From: an uncultured Aurantimicrobium sp.
GTDB taxonomy: Bacteria; Actinomycetota; Actinomycetes; Actinomycetales; Microbacteriaceae
Direction: 5' to 3'
DNA: 48,398 bases
NCBI RefSeq assembly: GCF_936931525.1
Contig: NZ_CAKZII010000160.1
Location: 1-48,398, forward strand
The notes under the pieces were generated by a model. That model ran no database searches, was not told the origin of the DNA, and saw nothing but the letters and a program-made list of their open reading frames with translations. Of this stretch, positions 23,976 through 36,577 are shown in pieces (within the stretch, counting starts at the first letter, position 1; every line of letters begins with the position of its first letter). The translations under genes and the position numbers were made by a program.

Positions 23976-25766
23976 ATGACCGGTGAACAGACGCATATTG
24001 GCTCGTTCGCCGCAGAACATCTTTCTCCCGCATACCCTGCCCGTGCCCCTTGGGGCACAGCTGAAAACCTCCGAGCCTGGCAAACAGAGGCCCTTGATGC
24101 CTATTTCCAGAACGAGCCCAAAGATTTTCTTGCCGCTGCAACTCCAGGTGCTGGCAAGACGACCTTTGCACTTCGTTTAGCTACAGAGCTTTTGCGCCGA
24201 AGAACTATTGATCGCATTACCGTAGTCACACCCACTGAGCATCTCAAAACGCAATGGGCAGATGCTGCACACAAAGTTGGTATTCGCCTGAATCCACATT
24301 TCAGCAATGCTCACAAACGTCACAGCAAGCAATTCCACGGTGTTGCCGTGACGTATGCGCAAATAGCGATGAAGGCCCACATCCACCAGGAGCTCACGGA
24401 TTCAGCGCGAACACTGGTGATCATGGATGAAGTACACCATGGAGGCGATGCACTGAGCTGGGGTGACGCATTACGTGTAGCTTTCAGTCGCGCAGAACGA
24501 CGTCTTTCGCTTACAGGCACACCGTTCCGCAGTGATACTGCTCCCATCCCTTTCGTCAGCTACCTCCCTGACCGTGATGGTGTCTTAGTTTCACAAACAG
24601 ATTATGACTATGGCTACGGACGAGCTCTTCAAGATGGTGTTGTTCGCCCGGTCATGTTTATGGTTTATGCCGGTTCGATGCGTTGGCGAACCAGGGCCGG
24701 CGATGAAATGGAAGCTCGGCTAGGTCAAGACAACACTAAGGACGTCACCTCTCAAGCGTGGCGTGCTGCTCTCGATCCAGGCGGGGACTGGATTCCTCAG
24801 GTTATGCAGGCAGCAAATAATCGCCTCACTGAAGTTCGCCAGTCGATTCCTGATGCTGCAGGTCTTGTCATTGCAACCGACCAAGATGACGCCAGAGCAT
24901 ATGCACAAGTGCTGTTAGAGCTCACCGGAGAAGAACCTACGGTTGTGTTGAGCGATGAAGCCGGCGGTGGTCAGAAGATTGACACGTTCTCAGCGGGAAC
25001 TTCACGCTGGATGGTTGCCGTCCGCATGGTTTCTGAAGGTGTTGATGTTCCACGGCTTGCTGTTGGCGTTTATGCAACCAGTGCAGCAACACCCTTGTAT
25101 TTCGCTCAAGCTATCGGTCGTTTTGTCCGCGCACGACGTCGCGGCGAGACGGCGACGGTGTTCTTGCCTAACGTTCCTCAACTGATGCAGTTGGCAGGTG
25201 AACTTGAACTTCAACGTGATCATGCCCTTGAGCGTCGCGTAAAGCCAGGCGAGAGCGAGTATCCAGAGATGGATGCGTTTGAAGAATCTCAGCGGGCAGA
25301 ATCTGCTTCCGACACGTTAGAAGCGGATCTGGGGGAGTATGCCTTCCTCGGTTCTGATGCGAACTTCGACATGGTGATGTACCAAGGTGAAGAATTTGGT
25401 GGATACGCAGAACCTGGTTCACCAGAAGAACATGACTTCATCGGAATTCCTGGGATTTTGGAACCTGACCAAATTTCAGAACTTCTTCGACACCGGCAAC
25501 GTCGGCAAACTCAACGTGGTGTTGGTAGATCCAGTGATGTCGCGGTCAACAAAAGCATCCCATTACACAGAAGCTTGAAAGAGCAGCGAGCACTTCTGAA
25601 TTCCTTAGTTGCTTTATGGAGCAAGCAAACGTCTACACCTCACGGCATCATTCATACTGAACTGCGTCAAACATGTGGTGGTCCAGCCGTTGCTCAGGCC
25701 ACAGTTGCCCAACTTCAGTCCCGAATTGATCTCATGCGTCGTCGGATTTCATCACCTGTCAAATAG
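23976..25766 (+). CDS. SF2 DEAD/DEAH-box helicase (type III restriction Res-like)
   Basis: AATPGAGKTTFALRLA motif I, VIMDEVHHGGD motif II, LTGTPFRSD motif III, FAQAIGRFVRARR motif VI. Confidence 0.9.
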   Translation: MTGEQTHIGSFAAEHLSPAYPARAPWGTAENLRAWQTEALDAYFQNEPKDFLAAATPGAGKTTFALRLATELLRRRTIDRITVVTPTEHLKTQWADAAHKVGIRLNPHFSNAHKRHSKQFHGVAVTYAQIAMKAHIHQELTDSARTLVIMDEVHHGGDALSWGDALRVAFSRAERRLSLTGTPFRSDTAPIPFVSYLPDRDGVLVSQTDYDYGYGRALQDGVVRPVMFMVYAGSMRWRTRAGDEMEARLGQDNTKDVTSQAWRAALDPGGDWIPQVMQAANNRLTEVRQSIPDAAGLVIATDQDDARAYAQVLLELTGEEPTVVLSDEAGGGQKIDTFSAGTSRWMVAVRMVSEGVDVPRLAVGVYATSAATPLYFAQAIGRFVRARRRGETATVFLPNVPQLMQLAGELELQRDHALERRVKPGESEYPEMDAFEESQRAESASDTLEADLGEYAFLGSDANFDMVMYQGEEFGGYAEPGSPEEHDFIGIPGILEPDQISELLRHRQRRQTQRGVGRSSDVAVNKSIPLHRSLKEQRALLNSLVALWSKQTSTPHGIIHTELRQTCGGPAVAQATVAQLQSRIDLMRRRISSPVK

Positions 25767-25840
25767 CAATATCTTCTACTTTTTCTTGCGACACACCCAA
25801 TATGTAGTGGTTCAATAACTACTTGAAGGTTGTGCAGCAG

Positions 25841-25846
25841 TACTAT
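25841..25846 (+). promoter_or_regulatory. Candidate -10 (TACTAT) of leaderless LRV-repeat gene
   Basis: TACTAT-tttctac-ATG(25854). Confidence 0.45.
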
Positions 25847-25853
25847 TTTCTAC

Positions 25854-26312
25854 ATGTCTTGCATCAGATTTAACACACCAGCACAACGTGCACAGCTCGA
25901 TGCTCTCAAAGCAGATAAGAAGCTGAACGAGACTGCTGTGGCTAAATTCCTCGGTCCAGAGTTTGGTGAGAGCAAAATTAATCGTCTCCGCACCATGGCC
26001 GTGGACAAAAACCCAAAAATCCGTGAAAGCGTCGCCCTGAGCTATCACGTTCCTGAAGACGTGATGTGGGCTTTAGCCAAGGACAAAAACGAAGGTGTCA
26101 GGATCTGCGTTGCGCGAAACGAAACCACTCCGTGTGACATCTTGCGCCACCTTGCTACGGACAAGAGTGAACAAGTTCGAAGCTGGGTAGCAGTGAACTT
26201 TTTTGTCCCCCAAGACACAATGGAAATTCTTGCTTCCGACAAAAGCGAATCTGTGCGCAAGCTAGTTGCGTGGAAGGCAGATTTAGCTCAGCAAGAATTA
26301 GTCTCGGCCTAG
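25854..26312 (+). CDS. Variant leucine-rich-repeat/HEAT-like repeat protein
   Basis: Three tandem 26-residue units (L/M)A.DK....R..VA......P.D....  plus partial fourth; ATG 25854 preferred over 25830. Confidence 0.7.
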   Translation: MSCIRFNTPAQRAQLDALKADKKLNETAVAKFLGPEFGESKINRLRTMAVDKNPKIRESVALSYHVPEDVMWALAKDKNEGVRICVARNETTPCDILRHLATDKSEQVRSWVAVNFFVPQDTMEILASDKSESVRKLVAWKADLAQQELVSA

Positions 26313-26548: not shown

Positions 26549-27373
26549 ATGGGATTTTTCGAGGCACTTTTTCTTGGGTTTGTTCAGGGACTAACTGAAT
26601 TTATTCCCGTTTCAAGCTCGGCACATCTCAGAATCATCGGAGAATTTCTTCCCAACGGGGGAGACCCAGGAGCCACGTTTACGGCTATTACTCAGCTGGG
26701 CACAGAAACCGCTGTTGTTGTGTATTTCTGGCGTGACCTTGTTCGAATCGTGAAACATTGGTTCTTAGCATTGGTCAGGAAGTTGCCCCGAAATGATCCG
26801 GATGCACGAATGGGCTGGCTCATCATTGTGGGATCGCTCCCCATCGTTGTTCTGGGATTAGTCTTCCAAGACGAAATCGAGACGACGCTTCGTTCGTTGT
26901 GGATCGTCGCAACGATGTTGATTGTCTTCGGCATTTTGTTAGGCATTGCAGATGTTGTCGGAAAGAAAACGAAAAACCTGCAACAGCTCACGGTAGGCCG
27001 CGGAATAGTCTTTGGTTTCGCACAGGCTTTAGCTTTGATTCCAGGTGTATCTCGCTCCGGTGGCACCATCACAGCCGGACTCTTTATGGGATTCAACAGA
27101 ACGTCTGCAGCCCGTTATTCGTTCTTACTCGCACTGCCTGCAGTGTTCGGTAGTGGTCTTTACCAACTGGCCAAGAGTTTCAACGAACCACAAGTGTTTA
27201 CAGGGATAGAGACTCTAGCTGCCACAGTGGTGGCGTTTATCGTTGGCATTGGAGTTATTGCATTCCTAATGAACTGGCTTGGAAAGCACAGTTTTTGGCC
27301 ATTTGTTGTCTATCGCTTAGCTCTTGGTGGAACTCTGTTGGCTCTCCTGGCAACCGGAGTAATCCAAGGCTAA
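26549..27373 (+). CDS. uppP: Undecaprenyl-diphosphate phosphatase
   Basis: [46 protein letters not shown] track starts 26528. Confidence 0.95.
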
Positions 27374-28290
27374 ACGCCTTTAGGGGGTTCTGTACCTTCG
27401 CCGGGTTTGTCGGTGGAGCGCAGGAATCTTTCAAACTCTTGTGCCAGTGATTCTCCAGTTGCCTCTGGCGAATCAACCATGTCTCGGGCTTGCTCGAGCT
27501 GAGCAATGTAAGACGACATATCTTCGTCTTCAGCCGCGAGCTTATTGATGTTTTCTTCCCACTCCGCTGCTTCGGAGACAAGCTCACCACGTGGAATGAC
27601 GACGTCCACAATCTCTTCGAGTTTGTCAATGAGCGCAAGAGTTGCTTTAGGGCTCGGTCCTTGGTGGACATAGTGAGGAACAGAAGCCCAGATGGCAACA
27701 GTTGGAATATCTGCTTCCTCGGCTGCTGCTGCAATGACACTCAAAATACCTACAGGGCCTTCATAAGTACTTCGCTCGACATCGAGTGCGTGACGAACAT
27801 CAGCATTTTCGCTAGAAACAAAGGTAGAAATCGGCCTCGTGTGTGGGACGTCAGCCAGCATTGAACCCAACAAGACAATGGCAGAGATGTCTGCAGCCAG
27901 TGCGATATCCAGAATTTCGTTCGTAAAAGTCAACCAATTGCGGCTTGGTTCTACTCCCTGAAGGAGATAAATGTTGTTCGCATTGGCACCTGTTACATCG
28001 AGTATTAGATCTTCCGAGACACTCTCATCAAGATCGGCTGGAACCATCGGGGCATAGAGAATCGAAGTTGGCCAGGTAAGCGACCTGTTTCCGTCATCAT
28101 CGAAACCGATCGTAGGTCGATTGAATTGGAAGTCGTAATACGTTTCTGGGTCAACGGTATGAAGCGCAATAACATCAAGCTGTTCCTGAAGAGTCGTTAC
28201 AGCTGAGCTTGCTGCCTCTCCGGCATCATTCCAGCCTTCAAATGCGACAACAAGAAGTCGTCCTCGGAATGGATTACGTGCTGTGCTCAC
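27370..28290 (-). CDS. PAC2 family protein
   Basis: [38 protein letters not shown] typical of actinobacterial PAC2 proteins. Confidence 0.88.
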
Positions 28291-28356: not shown

Positions 28357-29049
28357 GTGAGCAGTAACGAAACCTCTTTATCCATCAAGCCCGAAGCGAT
28401 TCTCTGGGACATGGACGGCACCATTGTCGATACCGAAGATTATTGGATCGTTGCTGAACTAGAACTGGTCCAACTTTTTGGTGGTTCCTGGACTCACGAA
28501 GATGGCATCAAAGTCATTGGACAAGGTTTGCCCGAAACGGCAGCAATCATGCAACAACATGGAGTAAATCTCTCCATCGACGAGATCATTCAGGCTCTCA
28601 CTAACCGTGTCCTTGAACAACTTGAGGTTGCTGTTCCTTGGCGGCCTGGCGCTGTTGAACTGATGCATCAGTTTCAAGCCATAGGTATTCCTCAAGCAAT
28701 GGTCACTATGTCTATTGAGAGAATGGCTCGGGCAGTGATCGCGATGATTCCCGGGCAGCCACTGACAGAAGTTGTGGCCGGTGATAATGTCCTCAAATCC
28801 AAACCAGATCCAGAGGCATATCTTTTAGGCTCAAGCAAGTTGAATGTAGATATTTCGCGATGTGTAGCGTTCGAGGATTCACCGTCAGGATGCAGGGCAG
28901 CCTATAGTTCCGGCGCAGTCACCTTTGGTGTCACAAATCTTGTCTCTCTTGAAGGAATTTCCACAGACATCACACTCGACACACTTGCTGGTGTCTCGGC
29001 TGAACAAGTATTTGACATATTCGCAGCAAAACGAGGACTGAATTCATGA
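28357..29049 (+). CDS. HAD family hydrolase (phosphoglucomutase-like phosphatase)
   Basis: ILWDMDGTIVDTEDYW, KPDPEAYLLG, AFEDSPSGCRAAYSSG. Confidence 0.92.
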   Translation: MSSNETSLSIKPEAILWDMDGTIVDTEDYWIVAELELVQLFGGSWTHEDGIKVIGQGLPETAAIMQQHGVNLSIDEIIQALTNRVLEQLEVAVPWRPGAVELMHQFQAIGIPQAMVTMSIERMARAVIAMIPGQPLTEVVAGDNVLKSKPDPEAYLLGSSKLNVDISRCVAFEDSPSGCRAAYSSGAVTFGVTNLVSLEGISTDITLDTLAGVSAEQVFDIFAAKRGLNS

Positions 29050-30056
29050 CACACGCAAACACTCCTCGCTACATGCCTGGACCATTTCGAGCAGGGGATA
29101 GGTGCCAACTCACCGACCCCAAGGGCAAAATCAATACAGTTTCACTCAAGCACGGAGACGAATTCCATACACACCGAGGTGTAGTAAAGCACGAAGACAT
29201 CATTGGTTTGCCTGATGCTTCTGTCGTGCTGAACAGCTCTGGCGTCGAGTATTTGGTCATGCGACCACTTCTGGTCGACTTTGTCATGTCCATGCCTCGT
29301 GGTGCTGCAATTATTTATCCCAAAGAAGCTCAGGCGATTTTGGGGCAAGCAGACATATTTCCCGGTGCACGAGTTGTAGAAGCAGGCGTAGGTTCAGGTG
29401 CACTTTCCTTGTGGCTGCTTCGCGCTATCGGTCCTCAAGGTTTCTTGTATTCCTTCGAGCGTCGAGAAGAATTTGCGGAGATTGCTCGAGCAAATGTTTC
29501 CACTTTCCACGGTTACACTCCTGAAAACTGGTCAGTTACGGTTGGAGACCTTCAAGACGCCTTACCCATGACCGTAAAGCCAGGTGAAGCCGACCGTGTC
29601 GTTCTCGACATGCTTGCGCCCTGGGAATGTGTCGACATGGCTGCAGATGCTCTCGTACCTGGTGGAGTAGTGCTGATGTATGTCGCCACAGTCACGCAAC
29701 TTTCGAGAGTTGTCGAGGCCTTGCGAGAAACCGGTCAGTTCTCTCACCCACAGTCCAGTGAAACCATCGTTCGTGGTTGGCATGTCGAAGGACTAGCAGT
29801 TCGTCCTGAACATCGAATGATTGGCCACACCGCCTTTTTGGTGACAGCCCGAAAATTAGCTCCTGGAACAGTTCTTCCCGATCTGAAGAGACGAGCTTCC
29901 AAGAGCGATTTCAGCGCGGAAGATCTCGAAGCGTGGACCCCCGGCGTCTTGGGCGGCAGAGAAATAAGCCCAAAGAGCCTCCGTAAGCGTGTGCGATCAG
30001 CTACCGAAAGTGCAGAACTTTCACAGGCTTCAGACAGCTCGTCGCCAGCTGAATAA
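29046..30056 (+). CDS. trmI: tRNA (adenine-N1)-methyltransferase TrmI
   Basis: VSLKHGDEFHTHRGVVKHEDIIG, PGARVVEAGVGSGALSLWLLRAIGPQG. Confidence 0.92.
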   Translation: MTHANTPRYMPGPFRAGDRCQLTDPKGKINTVSLKHGDEFHTHRGVVKHEDIIGLPDASVVLNSSGVEYLVMRPLLVDFVMSMPRGAAIIYPKEAQAILGQADIFPGARVVEAGVGSGALSLWLLRAIGPQGFLYSFERREEFAEIARANVSTFHGYTPENWSVTVGDLQDALPMTVKPGEADRVVLDMLAPWECVDMAADALVPGGVVLMYVATVTQLSRVVEALRETGQFSHPQSSETIVRGWHVEGLAVRPEHRMIGHTAFLVTARKLAPGTVLPDLKRRASKSDFSAEDLEAWTPGVLGGREISPKSLRKRVRSATESAELSQASDSSSPAE

Positions 30057-30123
30057 CCCCGGGGACACATAGGCTAGAAACTGCGTGAGGAACATTCCTC
30101 ACAATGATTTTTTGCGAGGAATT

Positions 30124-31068
30124 GTGCGTCGGAGTTCAGCCCTTATTGTCAGCATCGCTCTGATTGCAGGTTTATCTGCTTGTAGCACTGCGACTTCAGA
30201 TCCATCATGCACGCCACTTGCTGAATCTGGCTCTGCTGTGGACAAGGTCAAAGTCAGTGGTGGTTTCGGTGAGCTGCCTACCGCTGAGTTCCCCACACCT
30301 CTCACTACCTCTAAGACAGAGCGAAAGATTCTCGTCAAAGGTGACGGTGCTCCAGCTTTACCGGGTGGAGCTGTCACTCTTGACTTCACGATTTACAACG
30401 GAGAAACCGGTGACATTCTTGGGCAGACCAAGTATGACGGAACAGATCTTCAGACGTCCTCGTTGGACGACAACAGCTTGATCCATGGTTTGGTCGCAAC
30501 CATTCAATGTGCTCCGGCAGGCAGCCAAATAGTTTCAGTCATTGCGCCCACTGATCTTCTTGACCAAAATGGTGCACCTGTTGGGGACTTGGGCAAAGAC
30601 ACCAGCTTGGTTGTCGTTGCAGATCTTGTTTCTACAAGCCTTGCCCGCGCAAATGGTAAAGATCAACCCGCTCAAGATGGCTTCCCTGCGGTCGTTCTTG
30701 ACGCTGATGGTGTCCCTGGAATCACAGTTCCTAGCTCTCAAGCTCCTACAGATCTTAAAGTAGAAGTACTCAAGAAGGGCGATGGTCCTGTCGTTCAAGC
30801 TGGCTCGTCTGTAACCGTGCATTACACCGGTGTTCTATGGAGTGACGGCACTGTATTCGACTCAAGCTGGTCTCGAAAGACCCCAGCAACGTTCAGCCTC
30901 AACGGTGTCGTTCCAGGTTTCGCTCAAGCACTTGAAGGACAAACCGTGGGGTCGCAGATTGTGGCCATAATTCCGCCTGATTTGGGTTACGGAAACCAAG
31001 ACAATGGAACGATTCCTTCAGGTTCAACTCTTGTCTTTGTTATCGACATCCTTGGTACTACCCCTTAG
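30124..31068 (+). CDS. FKBP-type peptidyl-prolyl isomerase, lipoprotein (ORF track starts 30085)
   Basis: Lipobox LSAC; FKBP domain VTVHYTGVLWSDGTVFDSSW...IPPDLGYG; GTG 30124 preceded by gagga. Confidence 0.88.
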   Translation: MRRSSALIVSIALIAGLSACSTATSDPSCTPLAESGSAVDKVKVSGGFGELPTAEFPTPLTTSKTERKILVKGDGAPALPGGAVTLDFTIYNGETGDILGQTKYDGTDLQTSSLDDNSLIHGLVATIQCAPAGSQIVSVIAPTDLLDQNGAPVGDLGKDTSLVVVADLVSTSLARANGKDQPAQDGFPAVVLDADGVPGITVPSSQAPTDLKVEVLKKGDGPVVQAGSSVTVHYTGVLWSDGTVFDSSWSRKTPATFSLNGVVPGFAQALEGQTVGSQIVAIIPPDLGYGNQDNGTIPSGSTLVFVIDILGTTP

Positions 31069-31079
31069 GTCGAGTAATC

Positions 31080-32075
31080 ATGTCGCGCAGTGAGATCAGA
31101 GTTAAGAAAGAAGACCGGTTATTCAGTCTTATTCTTGCTTTGGTGTCCTCTCGTGAAGGATTGACCAAGACAGAAATTTTGAAGACTGTTCGTGGTTACA
31201 GCGACATTTTTGACTACAGCGGCAATACGGCTTTGGACAAGATGTTCGAGCGCGATAAAGACGAGATACGTTCCATGGGCGTCATCATCGACACTTTGGA
31301 GCTACCTGAAGAAGAGGGTCAAACCCACAACATTCGGTATTCCATTTCACGTCAGAACTATGACTTTCCAGAAGGCCTTACTTTCACTTCTGATGAACTC
31401 ACACTGCTCAACGTAGCTGCAACGGCATGGCGCGAGGCATCTCTCTCCAATGATTCTCGACACGCACTGACCAAGATCAAGTCGTTAGGTGTTTCTGCCA
31501 ATGACCCCTTGATTGGTGTTGCTCCTCACATCAGAACAAATGATCGTGCCTTCGCAACAATTGAAGATGCTTTAGAGAATGAGCTCATTCTCACATTCAG
31601 CTACCTCAAACCAGGCCAGAGCAAACCTGAACAACGAACAGCATCCCCGCTAGCAGTTCTGAACTGGGGAGGTCTTTGGTACGTCCTAGCTTTCGATATG
31701 GACGTACAAGCAGAACGCACTTTCCTTCTCAAGCGCATTATTTCTGCCCCCACTCGAATACCGCAGAAAACACACCCTCGTTCTCCTGAAAACTATGCGC
31801 AGCGCCTTCGGAATGAACTTGAAGACATAACTCGAAAGAACCAAGCGTCTATCTCTGTTCGTTCCGGTTCGGATGCTCAACTACGTCTTTCCGCCAAATA
31901 TGGGCAAGCTCGGCATGAAACAGTTCTGACTTTTGGATATTCAGATCTTGAACTTCTGGCAGACGAGCTCATACTTTTCGGTGACCAAATCACCGTGATT
32001 TCACCTCCTGCACTCGTAGATTCTTTACGCTCTCGGTTGGAACTCATCTCTTCTCACCACAGAGGAGATAACTGA
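31080..32075 (+). CDS. pafB: WYL domain transcriptional regulator PafB
   Basis: HTH N-terminus, WYL region GGLWYVLAFDMDVQAERTFLLKRI; paired with pafC. Confidence 0.9.
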   Translation: MSRSEIRVKKEDRLFSLILALVSSREGLTKTEILKTVRGYSDIFDYSGNTALDKMFERDKDEIRSMGVIIDTLELPEEEGQTHNIRYSISRQNYDFPEGLTFTSDELTLLNVAATAWREASLSNDSRHALTKIKSLGVSANDPLIGVAPHIRTNDRAFATIEDALENELILTFSYLKPGQSKPEQRTASPLAVLNWGGLWYVLAFDMDVQAERTFLLKRIISAPTRIPQKTHPRSPENYAQRLRNELEDITRKNQASISVRSGSDAQLRLSAKYGQARHETVLTFGYSDLELLADELILFGDQITVISPPALVDSLRSRLELISSHHRGDN

Positions 32076-33046
32076 TGGCTTCTCAACCGCGACTTGAGGC
32101 AGCAGATCGCGTCACCCTGTTGATGTCTTTTGTTCCTTACCTCATAGAGCAAGGAGCTATTCCTGTGTCTCAACTGGCTCAACACTTCGACATCACAGCT
32201 GGCCAGGTAGAAGAACTTGTTCAACTTTTGGCCATGTCGGGAGTTCCTGGAGATGACGGTTATTACCAACATCAAGATCTTTTCGATATCAATTGGGATC
32301 TCTTTGAAGAGCACAAGGTAGTTGAACTCTGGCAGCACGTTGCAGTTGACGCTACTCCTCGATTTTCGGCCCGTGAAGCGGCCGCATTACTTGCTGGTCT
32401 TCAATATATTTCTGGAATTGTGCCTGAACGAGACAAGGGCATCATTGACAGACTTGTAGCCAAGATTTCCTCTGGGGCTTCTGCTTTGCCCGAAAATCTG
32501 TTGATTACACCAGCAGCTGTTCCTGTGGATCTCGATGTCATTCGTGATGCTGTGTCTTCAGGTTTGAGCGTCCATTTTGTGTATCAAAATGCTTCAGGTG
32601 AAAAGAACCCTCGGACGGTAGATCCTCTACGCCTCGATCTTGTGGGGGAGTCCTGGTACCTGCGTGGGTGGTGTCATGATCGTTCGGCTCTGAGAACATT
32701 TCGATTAGACCGAATTTCTGAGCTCTCAATTTCACACGATTCGATCGTCACCCAGCTGACTGCTTCAGATTTATCTGATGAACTTTTTGACATCAAAGAA
32801 ACTGATATCCGTGTTCGGTTCGCTATAGAAGAATCTGCACTCTCTCTTCTTTCGGCCTACCACCCCGTTGTTATTGGTTCTCACGGAACTGAGACGCTGG
32901 AAGTTGAAGTAGCTTTTAGCGATCTTGCGAGTGTTCCAATATTCGTTGCACAGATTCCAGGTTCGATTTCTGTACTGTCCCCAGCTGAGGCAATTTCAGC
33001 TGTGAGCTTATGGGCTAAGCAGGCACTACAGAGCTATAACGCCTAA
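32075..33046 (+). CDS. pafC: WYL domain transcriptional regulator PafC
   Basis: WYL core GESWYLRGWCHDRSALRTFRLDRI; overlaps pafB stop. Confidence 0.9.
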   Translation: MASQPRLEAADRVTLLMSFVPYLIEQGAIPVSQLAQHFDITAGQVEELVQLLAMSGVPGDDGYYQHQDLFDINWDLFEEHKVVELWQHVAVDATPRFSAREAAALLAGLQYISGIVPERDKGIIDRLVAKISSGASALPENLLITPAAVPVDLDVIRDAVSSGLSVHFVYQNASGEKNPRTVDPLRLDLVGESWYLRGWCHDRSALRTFRLDRISELSISHDSIVTQLTASDLSDELFDIKETDIRVRFAIEESALSLLSAYHPVVIGSHGTETLEVEVAFSDLASVPIFVAQIPGSISVLSPAEAISAVSLWAKQALQSYNA

Positions 33047-33088: not shown

Positions 33089-33298
33089 ATGCTAGGAAAT
33101 CTCTCCGGTTGGCACTTGCTCATCATCATTGCCATCATTCTGTTGTTGTTCGGTGCACCCAAACTTCCAGGTCTTGCTCGTTCACTCGGACAGTCCATGC
33201 GTATCTTCAAGAGCGAAGTTAAGCAGATGAAGGAAGATGGTCAGACTCCATCTGACTCCAGCTCCACCGACTCAAGCGACTCTTCAAAGTCCGCTTAG
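33089..33298 (+). CDS. tatA: Sec-independent translocase subunit TatA
   Basis: [37 protein letters not shown]. Confidence 0.96.
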
Positions 33299-33304
33299 TA
33301 GCCC

Positions 33305-34129
33305 ATGGCGGCACGGCAGACAAAAGCCTCCCGGCGTGAAGGAAAGATGTCCTTGGGTGGACATCTTGTAGAACTTCGCAAAAGGCTGTATTTCTCTGCC
33401 CTTTTCATCGTCATTGGTGCTGTTCTAGGTTGGTTTTCTGCTGATTTCCTTCTCGCTCAGCTACGTGAACCCATTTTTCTCGTTGCCTCTGAACAAGGTC
33501 GAGTAGCAACTCTGAACTATGACGGCATAACCAGTGCCTTTGATCTCAAGCTACAGATTGCTTTTACGGTCGGCATTGTTATCTCGAGTCCATTCTGGCT
33601 TTACCAAATTTGGGCATTCTTTATGCCTGGCCTGACCAAACGTGAAATCAAATACACATTGGGATTCATGTTCAGTGCAATTCCTTTATTCCTCGCAGGC
33701 TGCGCAGCAGGCTGGTATGTCTATCCTCATATCGTTGCCTTGATGACAAGCTTTGCGCCCAGTGATGATGCCACCATCATTACCGCCAAAACGTATTTCG
33801 ATTTTGTGCTCAAATTAGTTCTCGTCGTGGGTGTGGCATTTGTGTTGCCAGTCTTTCTCGTCTTGTTCAATTTTGCAGGCCTCTTATCTGCACAGAGCAT
33901 TATCAAGTCCTGGCGAATTGCCGTTCTGGTGATAACTCTCTTTACGGCAATTGCCACTCCCGCGGCAGATGTCCTCTCGATGTTCTTGCTCGCGATTCCT
34001 ATGGTTCTGCTCTATTTCTTAGCTGCAGGTATTGCCTGGCTCCATGACCGACGTACTGTCAAGAAGTCCAACGTGTATTCAGATAACGAAGCCAGTGTTC
34101 TGCCGCCATCAGAAACGTTCTCGGCGTAG
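33305..34129 (+). CDS. tatC: Twin-arginine translocase subunit TatC
   Basis: MSLGGHLVELRKRLYFSALF, multi-TM TatC. Confidence 0.96.
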   Translation: MAARQTKASRREGKMSLGGHLVELRKRLYFSALFIVIGAVLGWFSADFLLAQLREPIFLVASEQGRVATLNYDGITSAFDLKLQIAFTVGIVISSPFWLYQIWAFFMPGLTKREIKYTLGFMFSAIPLFLAGCAAGWYVYPHIVALMTSFAPSDDATIITAKTYFDFVLKLVLVVGVAFVLPVFLVLFNFAGLLSAQSIIKSWRIAVLVITLFTAIATPAADVLSMFLLAIPMVLLYFLAAGIAWLHDRRTVKKSNVYSDNEASVLPPSETFSA

Positions 34130-34132
34130 CCG

Positions 34133-36577
34133 ATGACTGAGTTATCTGCTGCTGAACGCTTCGCCCTGGCTCAAGCCCGCACGAAGACACCCCTCGTTAA
34201 CGCATTTCGCGAAAAGCGGTCTTTTGATTTAGATCCCTTCCAGATAGCAGCAGCTAATGTTCTGGAAGCTGGAAATAGCGTTCTCGTTGCAGCGCCAACA
34301 GGAGCTGGTAAGACCGTTGTTGCTGAATTCGCTGTCTTCTTGGCGATGAGCACTTCAGCAGACAAGTTGTTTTACACAACGCCCATGAAAGCGTTGTCTA
34401 ATCAGAAATACAATGAATTTGTTGAAGAGTGGGGTGCCGAAAATGTAGGCATTCTCACGGGTGACACCAATATCAATTCAGGTGCACGCATCGTTGTGAT
34501 GACCACTGAAGTCCTTCGCAACATGCTTTATGCAGACAGTGACCTACTCAAGGATCTGCGTTTCGTCGTGATGGACGAGATTCACTACCTCGCTGACCGC
34601 TTCCGAGGTGCAGTGTGGGAAGAAGTCATCATCCACTTACCTCAGCACGTACGACTGGTTGGCTTGAGCGCCACAGTCTCAAATGCTGAAGAATTTGGTG
34701 ACTGGCTTCAAGCAGTCCGAGGTGACACTGACATCATTGTTTCTGAGGACAGGCCTGTACCGCTTGATCAGCATGTTTTGGTTGGTAACAAGTTCATAGA
34801 CCTCTTCGACGGTTCGACAGCTGCAGCAGAACACCGTGTAAATCCAGAGCTCCTCAGACTCGCTCACTCCAATCAACGTGCTCCTCATATGCGTTCAGCC
34901 GGACGAAACGCACATCGTGGCGGTCGGAACAACCGTCCGCAATACGCACAAAACCAACCCATGCAAGGACGCATGGAACGAGCAGACATCATTGAACTGC
35001 TTTCTGAAAAGAACTTGCTTCCCGCAATTTCCTTCATCTTCAGCCGTGCTGGCTGTGACCAAGCCGTTTCGCAAGTGTTGAGATCTGGCATCAGGCTGAC
35101 TGATCCTGAAGAGCGCGAAATCATCCGTGAAATCGCTGAAGACAGATGTAGTGCCATCGCCGATGAAGACCTGGGTGTGCTCGGGTATTGGGATTGGCTT
35201 GACGGCCTCGAACGTGGAGTGGCCGCTCACCATGCAGGCCTGTTGCCGGCGTTCAAAGAAGTAGTCGAAGAACTGTTCCAAAAGAAGTTAGTCAAGGTTG
35301 TTTTCGCAACAGAAACACTTGCGTTGGGCATCAATATGCCGGCACGTACTGTTGTGTTAGAGAAGTTAGAAAAATTCAATGGCGAGGCACGAGTGCCGCT
35401 CACACCAGGTGAATACACGCAACTCACGGGAAGAGCTGGGCGTCGCGGCATCGATGTCGAAGGTCATTCACTCATTCAATGGGCGAACAATCTAGACCCA
35501 CAAACAGTTGCCTCTCTTGCGAGCAGACGAACTTACCCGCTGAATTCAAGTTTCAGGCCGACATACAACATGGCCATCAACTTGATTGAACAATTTGGCC
35601 GGAACCGAACCAGAGAAATCTTAGAAAGTAGTTTCGCTCAGTTCCAAGCCGACAGAGCTGTTGTTGATCTTGCTCGCAAAGTCAAACAACAAGAAGAGAC
35701 TTTGGCAGGTTATGCAGAGCCGATGACCTGTCATCTGGGCGATTTTGCAGATTACGCTACTCTGCGACGCACACTCACAGATGTAGAAAAGCAAACCGAA
35801 TCTGGCTCACGTGCAGCTAAAGAAAAACGAAGTGCCGAACTGAATTCTTTGCGTAAGCAAATGAAAAGTCATTCCTGTCACCACTGTCCTGACCGAGAGA
35901 ATCATGCGCGTTGGGCTGAAAGATGGTGGCGTCTCAAGAGAGAAACAGACAAGCTCGTCCAGCAGATCAATACACGTACAGGGGCGGTCGCTCGAATCTT
36001 TGACAGGGTCTGTGACGTTCTCGTGGACATGGACTATCTCATGAAAGATCCCCAGGGCACAGAATTCTCTCTCACCCCCAAGGGGGAGTCGCTGGGCAAG
36101 ATCTACGGTGAGCGTGACCTGTTGATCGCTGAAAGTATTCGTCTTCAATTATGGGACCAACTCGATGCACCAGGACTGGCGGCTATGGCATGTGCCATCG
36201 TCTTCGAACCACGTCGAGAAGAAGGTCTCGTGAATGAAAGATACCTTCCACGTGGAAAATTTATTGACGCCCTTCATGAAACTCAAAACCTCTGGTCAGA
36301 CCTCGAAGAGTTAGAGAATTATCACAAGTTGCCGGGCACTAACCCCCTCGCTACTGGGCTTTCATTGGCTATGTACAAATGGGCAAAGGGGTCTCGTTTG
36401 GATGACGTTCTCTTTGATGCAGATATGCCTGCAGGTGATTTTGTTCGGTGGTCAAAGCAGACCATTGATTTACTCGACCAACTAGCTCAGGTCACAACTG
36501 GTGAGCTACAGAAGACCGCTCGATTAGCTCTTGATCAGGTACGCCGTGGCATTGTTGCCTATTCGACGGTGATCTAA
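34133..36577 (+). CDS. DEAD/DEAH-box RNA helicase (HelY/Ski2-like)
   Basis: APTGAGKTVVAEFAVFLAMS, VMDEIHYLADRFRG, LGINMPARTVVLEKLEKFNGE, QLTGRAGRRGID. Confidence 0.94.
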   Translation: MTELSAAERFALAQARTKTPLVNAFREKRSFDLDPFQIAAANVLEAGNSVLVAAPTGAGKTVVAEFAVFLAMSTSADKLFYTTPMKALSNQKYNEFVEEWGAENVGILTGDTNINSGARIVVMTTEVLRNMLYADSDLLKDLRFVVMDEIHYLADRFRGAVWEEVIIHLPQHVRLVGLSATVSNAEEFGDWLQAVRGDTDIIVSEDRPVPLDQHVLVGNKFIDLFDGSTAAAEHRVNPELLRLAHSNQRAPHMRSAGRNAHRGGRNNRPQYAQNQPMQGRMERADIIELLSEKNLLPAISFIFSRAGCDQAVSQVLRSGIRLTDPEEREIIREIAEDRCSAIADEDLGVLGYWDWLDGLERGVAAHHAGLLPAFKEVVEELFQKKLVKVVFATETLALGINMPARTVVLEKLEKFNGEARVPLTPGEYTQLTGRAGRRGIDVEGHSLIQWANNLDPQTVASLASRRTYPLNSSFRPTYNMAINLIEQFGRNRTREILESSFAQFQADRAVVDLARKVKQQEETLAGYAEPMTCHLGDFADYATLRRTLTDVEKQTESGSRAAKEKRSAELNSLRKQMKSHSCHHCPDRENHARWAERWWRLKRETDKLVQQINTRTGAVARIFDRVCDVLVDMDYLMKDPQGTEFSLTPKGESLGKIYGERDLLIAESIRLQLWDQLDAPGLAAMACAIVFEPRREEGLVNERYLPRGKFIDALHETQNLWSDLEELENYHKLPGTNPLATGLSLAMYKWAKGSRLDDVLFDADMPAGDFVRWSKQTIDLLDQLAQVTTGELQKTARLALDQVRRGIVAYSTVI

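Follow-up and report, generated by a model that had tools for sequence, protein, structure and literature searches.

The window, by which we mean the whole 48,398-nucleotide stretch of DNA that was analysed, belongs to an Aurantimicrobium genome of the family Microbacteriaceae, and its trmI product shares 98% identity with that of Aurantimicrobium minutum MWH-Bo1. All genes from the one encoding a PAC2-family protein through the one encoding a HelY-like helicase are intact (Table 1). We found the order reported in the preliminary description, with a HAD-like hydrolase gene and trmI followed by an FKBP lipoprotein gene, pafB, pafC, tatA and tatC, and in the open reading frames of the window only 28 bp separate the trmI stop from the FKBP start. 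The FKBP product carries a lipobox-like LIAGLSAC. Between trmI and FKBP, neither the open reading frames nor the family profiles revealed pup, dop, pafA, arc or prcBA, which agrees with the earlier statement that the PAC2 gene and both flanks remain and the pupylation genes do not. The WCX domain scores above the Pfam cut-off in PafB and is not listed for PafC. Elsewhere in the window, positions 23976-25766 encode a ResIII/DEAD helicase that weakly resembles a restriction protein of a phosphorothioation system, adjoined by a small open reading frame of repeated segments (25830-26312); the helicase precedes a bacA-like gene in many Microbacteriaceae, and the Cryobacterium loci showed none.

Table 1. 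Features of the window from the PAC2-family gene to the helicase gene.
Feature	Positions	Strand	Evidence	Context
PAC2-family protein gene	27370..28290	-	PF09754, 182 bits	Retained left flank
HAD-like hydrolase gene	28357..29049	+	PF13419, 75 bits	Retained left flank
trmI (tRNA m1A58 methyltransferase)	29046..30056	+	PF14801, PF08704	Last gene before the closed junction
28-bp junction	30057..30084		From ORF ends	Site of arc-dop-prcB-prcA-pafA in other families
FKBP-type peptidyl-prolyl isomerase lipoprotein gene	30085..31068	+	PF00254, 87 bits	Right flank of the lost block
pafB	31080..32075	+	WYL and WCX; PDB 6sj9/7p5x PafB, E=9e-27 / 4e-26	
pafC	32075..33046	+	HTH_PafC 96.7 bits, WYL 78.5 bits; PDB 6sj9, E=5e-34	
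tatA (69 aa)	33089..33298	+	Translated sequence	Same place in relatives
tatC	33305..34129	+	TIGR00945, 156 bits, above cut-off	
HelY-like DEAD/DSHCT helicase gene	34133..36577	+	PF00270, PF08148	Conserved right flank

Pathway genes in the host genome and across the order

We searched the whole host genome, an assembly of 1.83 Mb in 189 contigs that is 98.75% complete, for pup, dop, pafA, mpa/arc and prcBA, the check by which the preliminary description proposed to detect relocation, and found none of them. There were no matches to the profile of the Pup ligase PafA and the depupylase Dop (Pup_ligase, PF03136), to Pup (PF05639) or to the 20S proteasome subunits (Proteasome, PF00227), and the best match to Arc/Mpa (TIGR03689), which was confined to the shared AAA core, scored 159 bits where the cut-off is 505. 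The Pup_ligase, Pup and Proteasome profiles likewise had no matches in near-complete genomes of the same genus.

When the search was extended to the family and the order, Pup-ligase homologues (PF03136) were present in none of 300 Microbacteriaceae genomes (85 genera, many genomes of 3-4.6 Mb) and in 268 of the 297 genomes sampled across the order, counts that draw on related genomes and stand for few independent events. Every other family sampled within the order contained them, and 28 of the 29 negatives were assigned either to the Microbacteriaceae or to family f4, where they are small genomes (0.8-1.8 Mb). Pup (PF05639) exceeded its cut-off in 0/300 Microbacteriaceae genomes, and no Proteasome (PF00227) match occurred in the 268 good ones, one weak match of 48 residues being seen in an 87% complete genome. 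Arc/Mpa (TIGR03689) passed its cut-off in 22 of 23 genomes searched from other families and in no Microbacteriaceae. Outside the order, Corynebacterium glutamicum carries Pup-ligase homologues. The PF03136-negative small genomes of f4 (G302, G350, G469, G492, G535 and G573) apparently reflect a second, separate Pup-ligase loss within the order.

The site of the missing block

In a locus of family f2 of the same order (L022), we observed the arrangement trmI-arc-dop-prcB-prcA-pafA-FKBP-X-pafB-pafC-tatA-tatC, where X is an unnamed gene. The proteasome ATPase, depupylase Dop, proteasome beta, proteasome alpha and Pup ligase of this locus all exceed curated cut-offs; the identification covered arc, dop, prcB, prcA and pafA, with the small pup gene outside that set. 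A similar pathway block lies between trmI and FKBP in families f7 and f9, and in f3 the block at this position is without prcBA. The preliminary description had expected the missing genes between trmI and pafB/pafC. Relatives do hold the block in that interval, but the junction that closed is trmI/FKBP and not trmI/pafB, because FKBP separates pafA from pafB in intact relatives, its orthologue lying directly 3' of pafA in L022. Since the block is held at trmI/FKBP in related families, this junction is the site of loss. In comparison with the Pup-proteasome locus of relatives, the window has the flanks in the same order (PAC2, HAD and trmI; FKBP, then pafB to the helicase) and differs in that all pathway genes are absent from both locus and genome. 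The suggested deletion of the block is therefore supported, given that related families have it exactly there and the host genome is without pathway genes anywhere.

Among 80 named Microbacteriaceae loci, 79 span the junction and one ends at a contig edge, and FKBP directly follows trmI in all 79 readable ones, including those of Leifsonia, Clavibacter, Cryobacterium, Plantibacter and Microbacterium. Wherever the trmI-FKBP distance was measurable it was at most 100 bp (one locus showed a frame artefact). The possibility raised earlier, that relatives never had the genes at this site, is true of the Microbacteriaceae and false of the order. Additionally, the FKBP-pafB interval of pupylation-positive families contains a conserved gene (L022:11861-13093, also in L021 and L027) whose product, of about 400 aa, has no Pfam or NCBIfam match; Microbacteriaceae lack this gene.

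Retention of PafBC and the recA promoter

PafC was found in 294 of 300 Microbacteriaceae genomes. In the window, PafB and PafC are encoded by adjacent genes, have WYL domains and a PafC-type HTH, and match PafBC structures in the PDB. In Arthrobacter aurescens the PafB recognition helix exposes Arg44 and Arg48 (PMC6789036); Arg48 is kept in the window, and position 44 is Lys there and Arg in the other Microbacteriaceae read. In mycobacteria, ssDNA activates PafBC, which guides the housekeeping RNA polymerase towards its own promoters (PMC11804915), and the LexA-independent damage promoters of mycobacteria follow the pattern tTGTCRgtg-N8-TannnT (PMC5656591). Upstream of the host recA, by approximately 140 nt, we found the RecA-NDp motif ATGTCAGTGGCTCCTCCTACGGT, and a PafBC-type motif is present at 21 of 23 Microbacteriaceae recA promoters, the host included, where a call required at least 10 of 12 specified positions, a level that shuffled upstream sequences rarely reach. 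In two Microbacteriaceae genomes with PafC (G009 and G010) the recA motif is weak or not found. The claim that PafBC was retained as a regulator of the DNA-damage response finds support in this retention and in the motif at the recA promoter.

Within Aurantimicrobium, three genomes also carry the motif upstream of the gene for a UvrD-like helicase, with its end 6 nt from the start codon, a spacing as for a leaderless transcript, and four genomes have it again upstream of dnaB; in individual species it precedes a DnaQ-like exonuclease gene and others. Two genomes (L176 and L180) have a PafBC-type motif 32 nt before the gene of a conserved NYN-domain protein. Genome-wide, the motif is not enriched in the genus (29 occurrences versus 31 for a reversed-pattern control), and the evidence for a regulon is thus the conserved placement of the motif, chiefly at recA. 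Taken with the retained genes, this placement suggests that PafBC probably still activates recA in Microbacteriaceae.

A few members of the family depart from this arrangement. In a genome of 0.93 Mb (L267 of G015), the FKBP-tatA interval has lost both pafB and pafC, and this is the only true pafBC deletion without a recA motif. In genus g6 (L254, L255, L256 and L258; genomes of 1.3-1.9 Mb), pafB and pafC apparently form a single fused and strongly diverged open reading frame of about 710-755 aa, the usual place of tatA before tatC yielded no tatA, and in L256 FKBP went undetected at the locus. A simple equation of PafC loss with loss of the recA motif was considered and rejected, because PafBC in g6 is fused and diverged and G197 has PafBC without the motif.

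Changes at the ssDNA-sensing residues

In Mycobacterium smegmatis PafB, mutation of R181, of Y196, of the R211/R214 pair or of the R181/R204/R208 triple abolishes ssDNA binding (PMC11804915). Using M. smegmatis numbering, we compared these residues between 24 pupylation-positive genomes of ten families and 76 Microbacteriaceae PafB proteins. Position 211 is Arg in 23 and Lys in one of the pupylation-positive set, whereas it is Leu, Met or Val in 76/76 Microbacteriaceae. Tyr196 is present in 24/24 of the former and in only 4 of the 76 Microbacteriaceae (lost in 72), and position 204 is Arg in 23 and Lys in one of the former, with Arg in 17/76 Microbacteriaceae (lost in 59). Residues R181, R208 and R214 are retained by nearly all. 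The window PafB keeps R181, Y196, R208 and R214, with R204 replaced by Val and R211 by Leu. Conservation across the pupylation-positive set marks 50 PafB columns. Microbacteriaceae have lost six of them, three of which are sensing residues from the tested set of six (chance approximately 0.018). In the PafB tree, the Microbacteriaceae and the pupylation-positive proteins are split by one branch with 100/100 support. The damage-sensing site changed on the branch on which pupylation was lost.

In PafC, position 194 changes from Ala or Ser to Arg (Arg in 50 of 73 Microbacteriaceae versus 0 of 23 others), the acidic position 188 (E188) becomes Arg in 63/73 Microbacteriaceae, and the paired arginines of the groove are mostly kept. 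It is conceivable, though we regard it as tentative, that PafC rather than PafB acts as the ssDNA sensor in Microbacteriaceae, or that the ligand differs; the PafB and PafC changes may also all be the drift of one lineage. The net charge of the PafB segment does not fall (2.9 versus 3.1), and that of PafC rises (0.0 versus 1.35, a comparison that takes no account of relatedness). A shift of net charge from PafB to PafC was rejected, the PafB segment being unchanged, as was a wholesale swap of WYL quality between the two, since both subunits have good WYL scores.

Discussion

These results are best read as the very probable outcome of a single event, in which the block was lost once on the Microbacteriaceae branch and PafBC was kept, still activating DNA-damage genes. 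One loss is the most parsimonious account of the taxonomy and synteny, from which we infer it. The entire set of Pup-proteasome genes (arc, dop, pup, prcBA and pafA) would have been lost from the trmI-FKBP interval on the branch leading to the Microbacteriaceae, and the Aurantimicrobium junction would be the inherited scar of this ancient loss. The retained PafBC would direct the housekeeping RNA polymerase to promoters that fit NTGTCRGWG-N8-TANNNT, recA above all.

The preliminary description had attributed the deletion to genome streamlining, and a recent loss of this kind in the freshwater Aurantimicrobium lineage would fit the small size of the host genome and its relatives (1.6-1.8 Mb) and the observation that the members of family f4 without pupylation have the smaller genomes of that family (0.8-1.8 Mb). 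For the Microbacteriaceae it is refuted by the absence of Pup-ligase genes from all 300 genomes, and the same junction is present in Leifsonia, Clavibacter, Cryobacterium, Plantibacter and Microbacterium; because both extend throughout the family, in genomes of up to 4.6 Mb, the loss must be older than the small Aurantimicrobium genome, and we consider a recent streamlining event very unlikely. That the pathway was instead moved elsewhere in the genome is more improbable still. Although a fragmented assembly such as that of the host could miss a single small gene, the Pup-ligase, Pup and proteasome profiles all failed to match, and near-complete same-genus genomes concur, so that relocation is excluded within the limits of the assembly.

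The inverse history, in which the Microbacteriaceae never had the pathway and other families gained it separately, draws on the view that proteasome genes reached Actinobacteria by horizontal transfer (PMC8223512), but several families of the order carry the block at one and the same trmI/FKBP site, Pup-ligase homologues occur in C. glutamicum of another order, and one loss is far likelier than separate gains at one site, which leaves this history little credence. Somewhat less remote, though still improbable, is that PafBC has become non-functional or an unrelated regulator since the pathway was lost. Its PafB sensing residues are altered, and the genomes in which pafBC is deleted (G015) or fused and strongly diverged (g6) are without a clear recA motif, G203 having one marginal site; against decay stand the near-universal retention of PafC and the conservation of the PafC WYL site, of PafB Arg181, Arg208 and Arg214 and of the recA motif.

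The loss of the block with retention of PafBC can be set beside known systems. Like the PafBC of M. smegmatis and A. aurescens (PDB 7p5x, 9fnd and 6sj9), that of the host genome has adjacent pafB and pafC, the PafC HTH, WYL domains in both subunits, the PafB recognition-helix core MFERDK and a recA motif. It differs from them in having no linkage to pafA, in the substitutions Arg211 to Leu and Arg204 to Val of the window PafB, in the loss of Tyr196 in most Microbacteriaceae PafB, though not the window's, and in the Arg often gained at PafC position 194. In Actinobacteria such as C. glutamicum and Micrococcus luteus, prcBA was lost and pupylation kept (PMC8223512), a likewise secondary loss within the same locus; unlike those species, which lost the proteasome subunits only, the Microbacteriaceae are without tagging, detagging, unfoldase and proteasome. 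A 2013 review noted only that two of four genomes in an older survey had no proteasome proteins (PMC4255298), and beyond this hint we found nothing relevant in the literature searched on the loss of pupylation or the proteasome in Microbacteriaceae.

The Microbacteriaceae are a large family that includes plant pathogens, soil bacteria and freshwater bacteria, and the absence of the whole pathway corrects the published view of the locus as universal in Actinobacteria. Without pupylation, other proteases would have to remove repair proteins after the damage response, and the family is a natural test of PafBC without the proteasome partner that is thought to end the response. Furthermore, the paired change at mapped ssDNA-sensing residues provides a specific prediction that can be tested with purified proteins.
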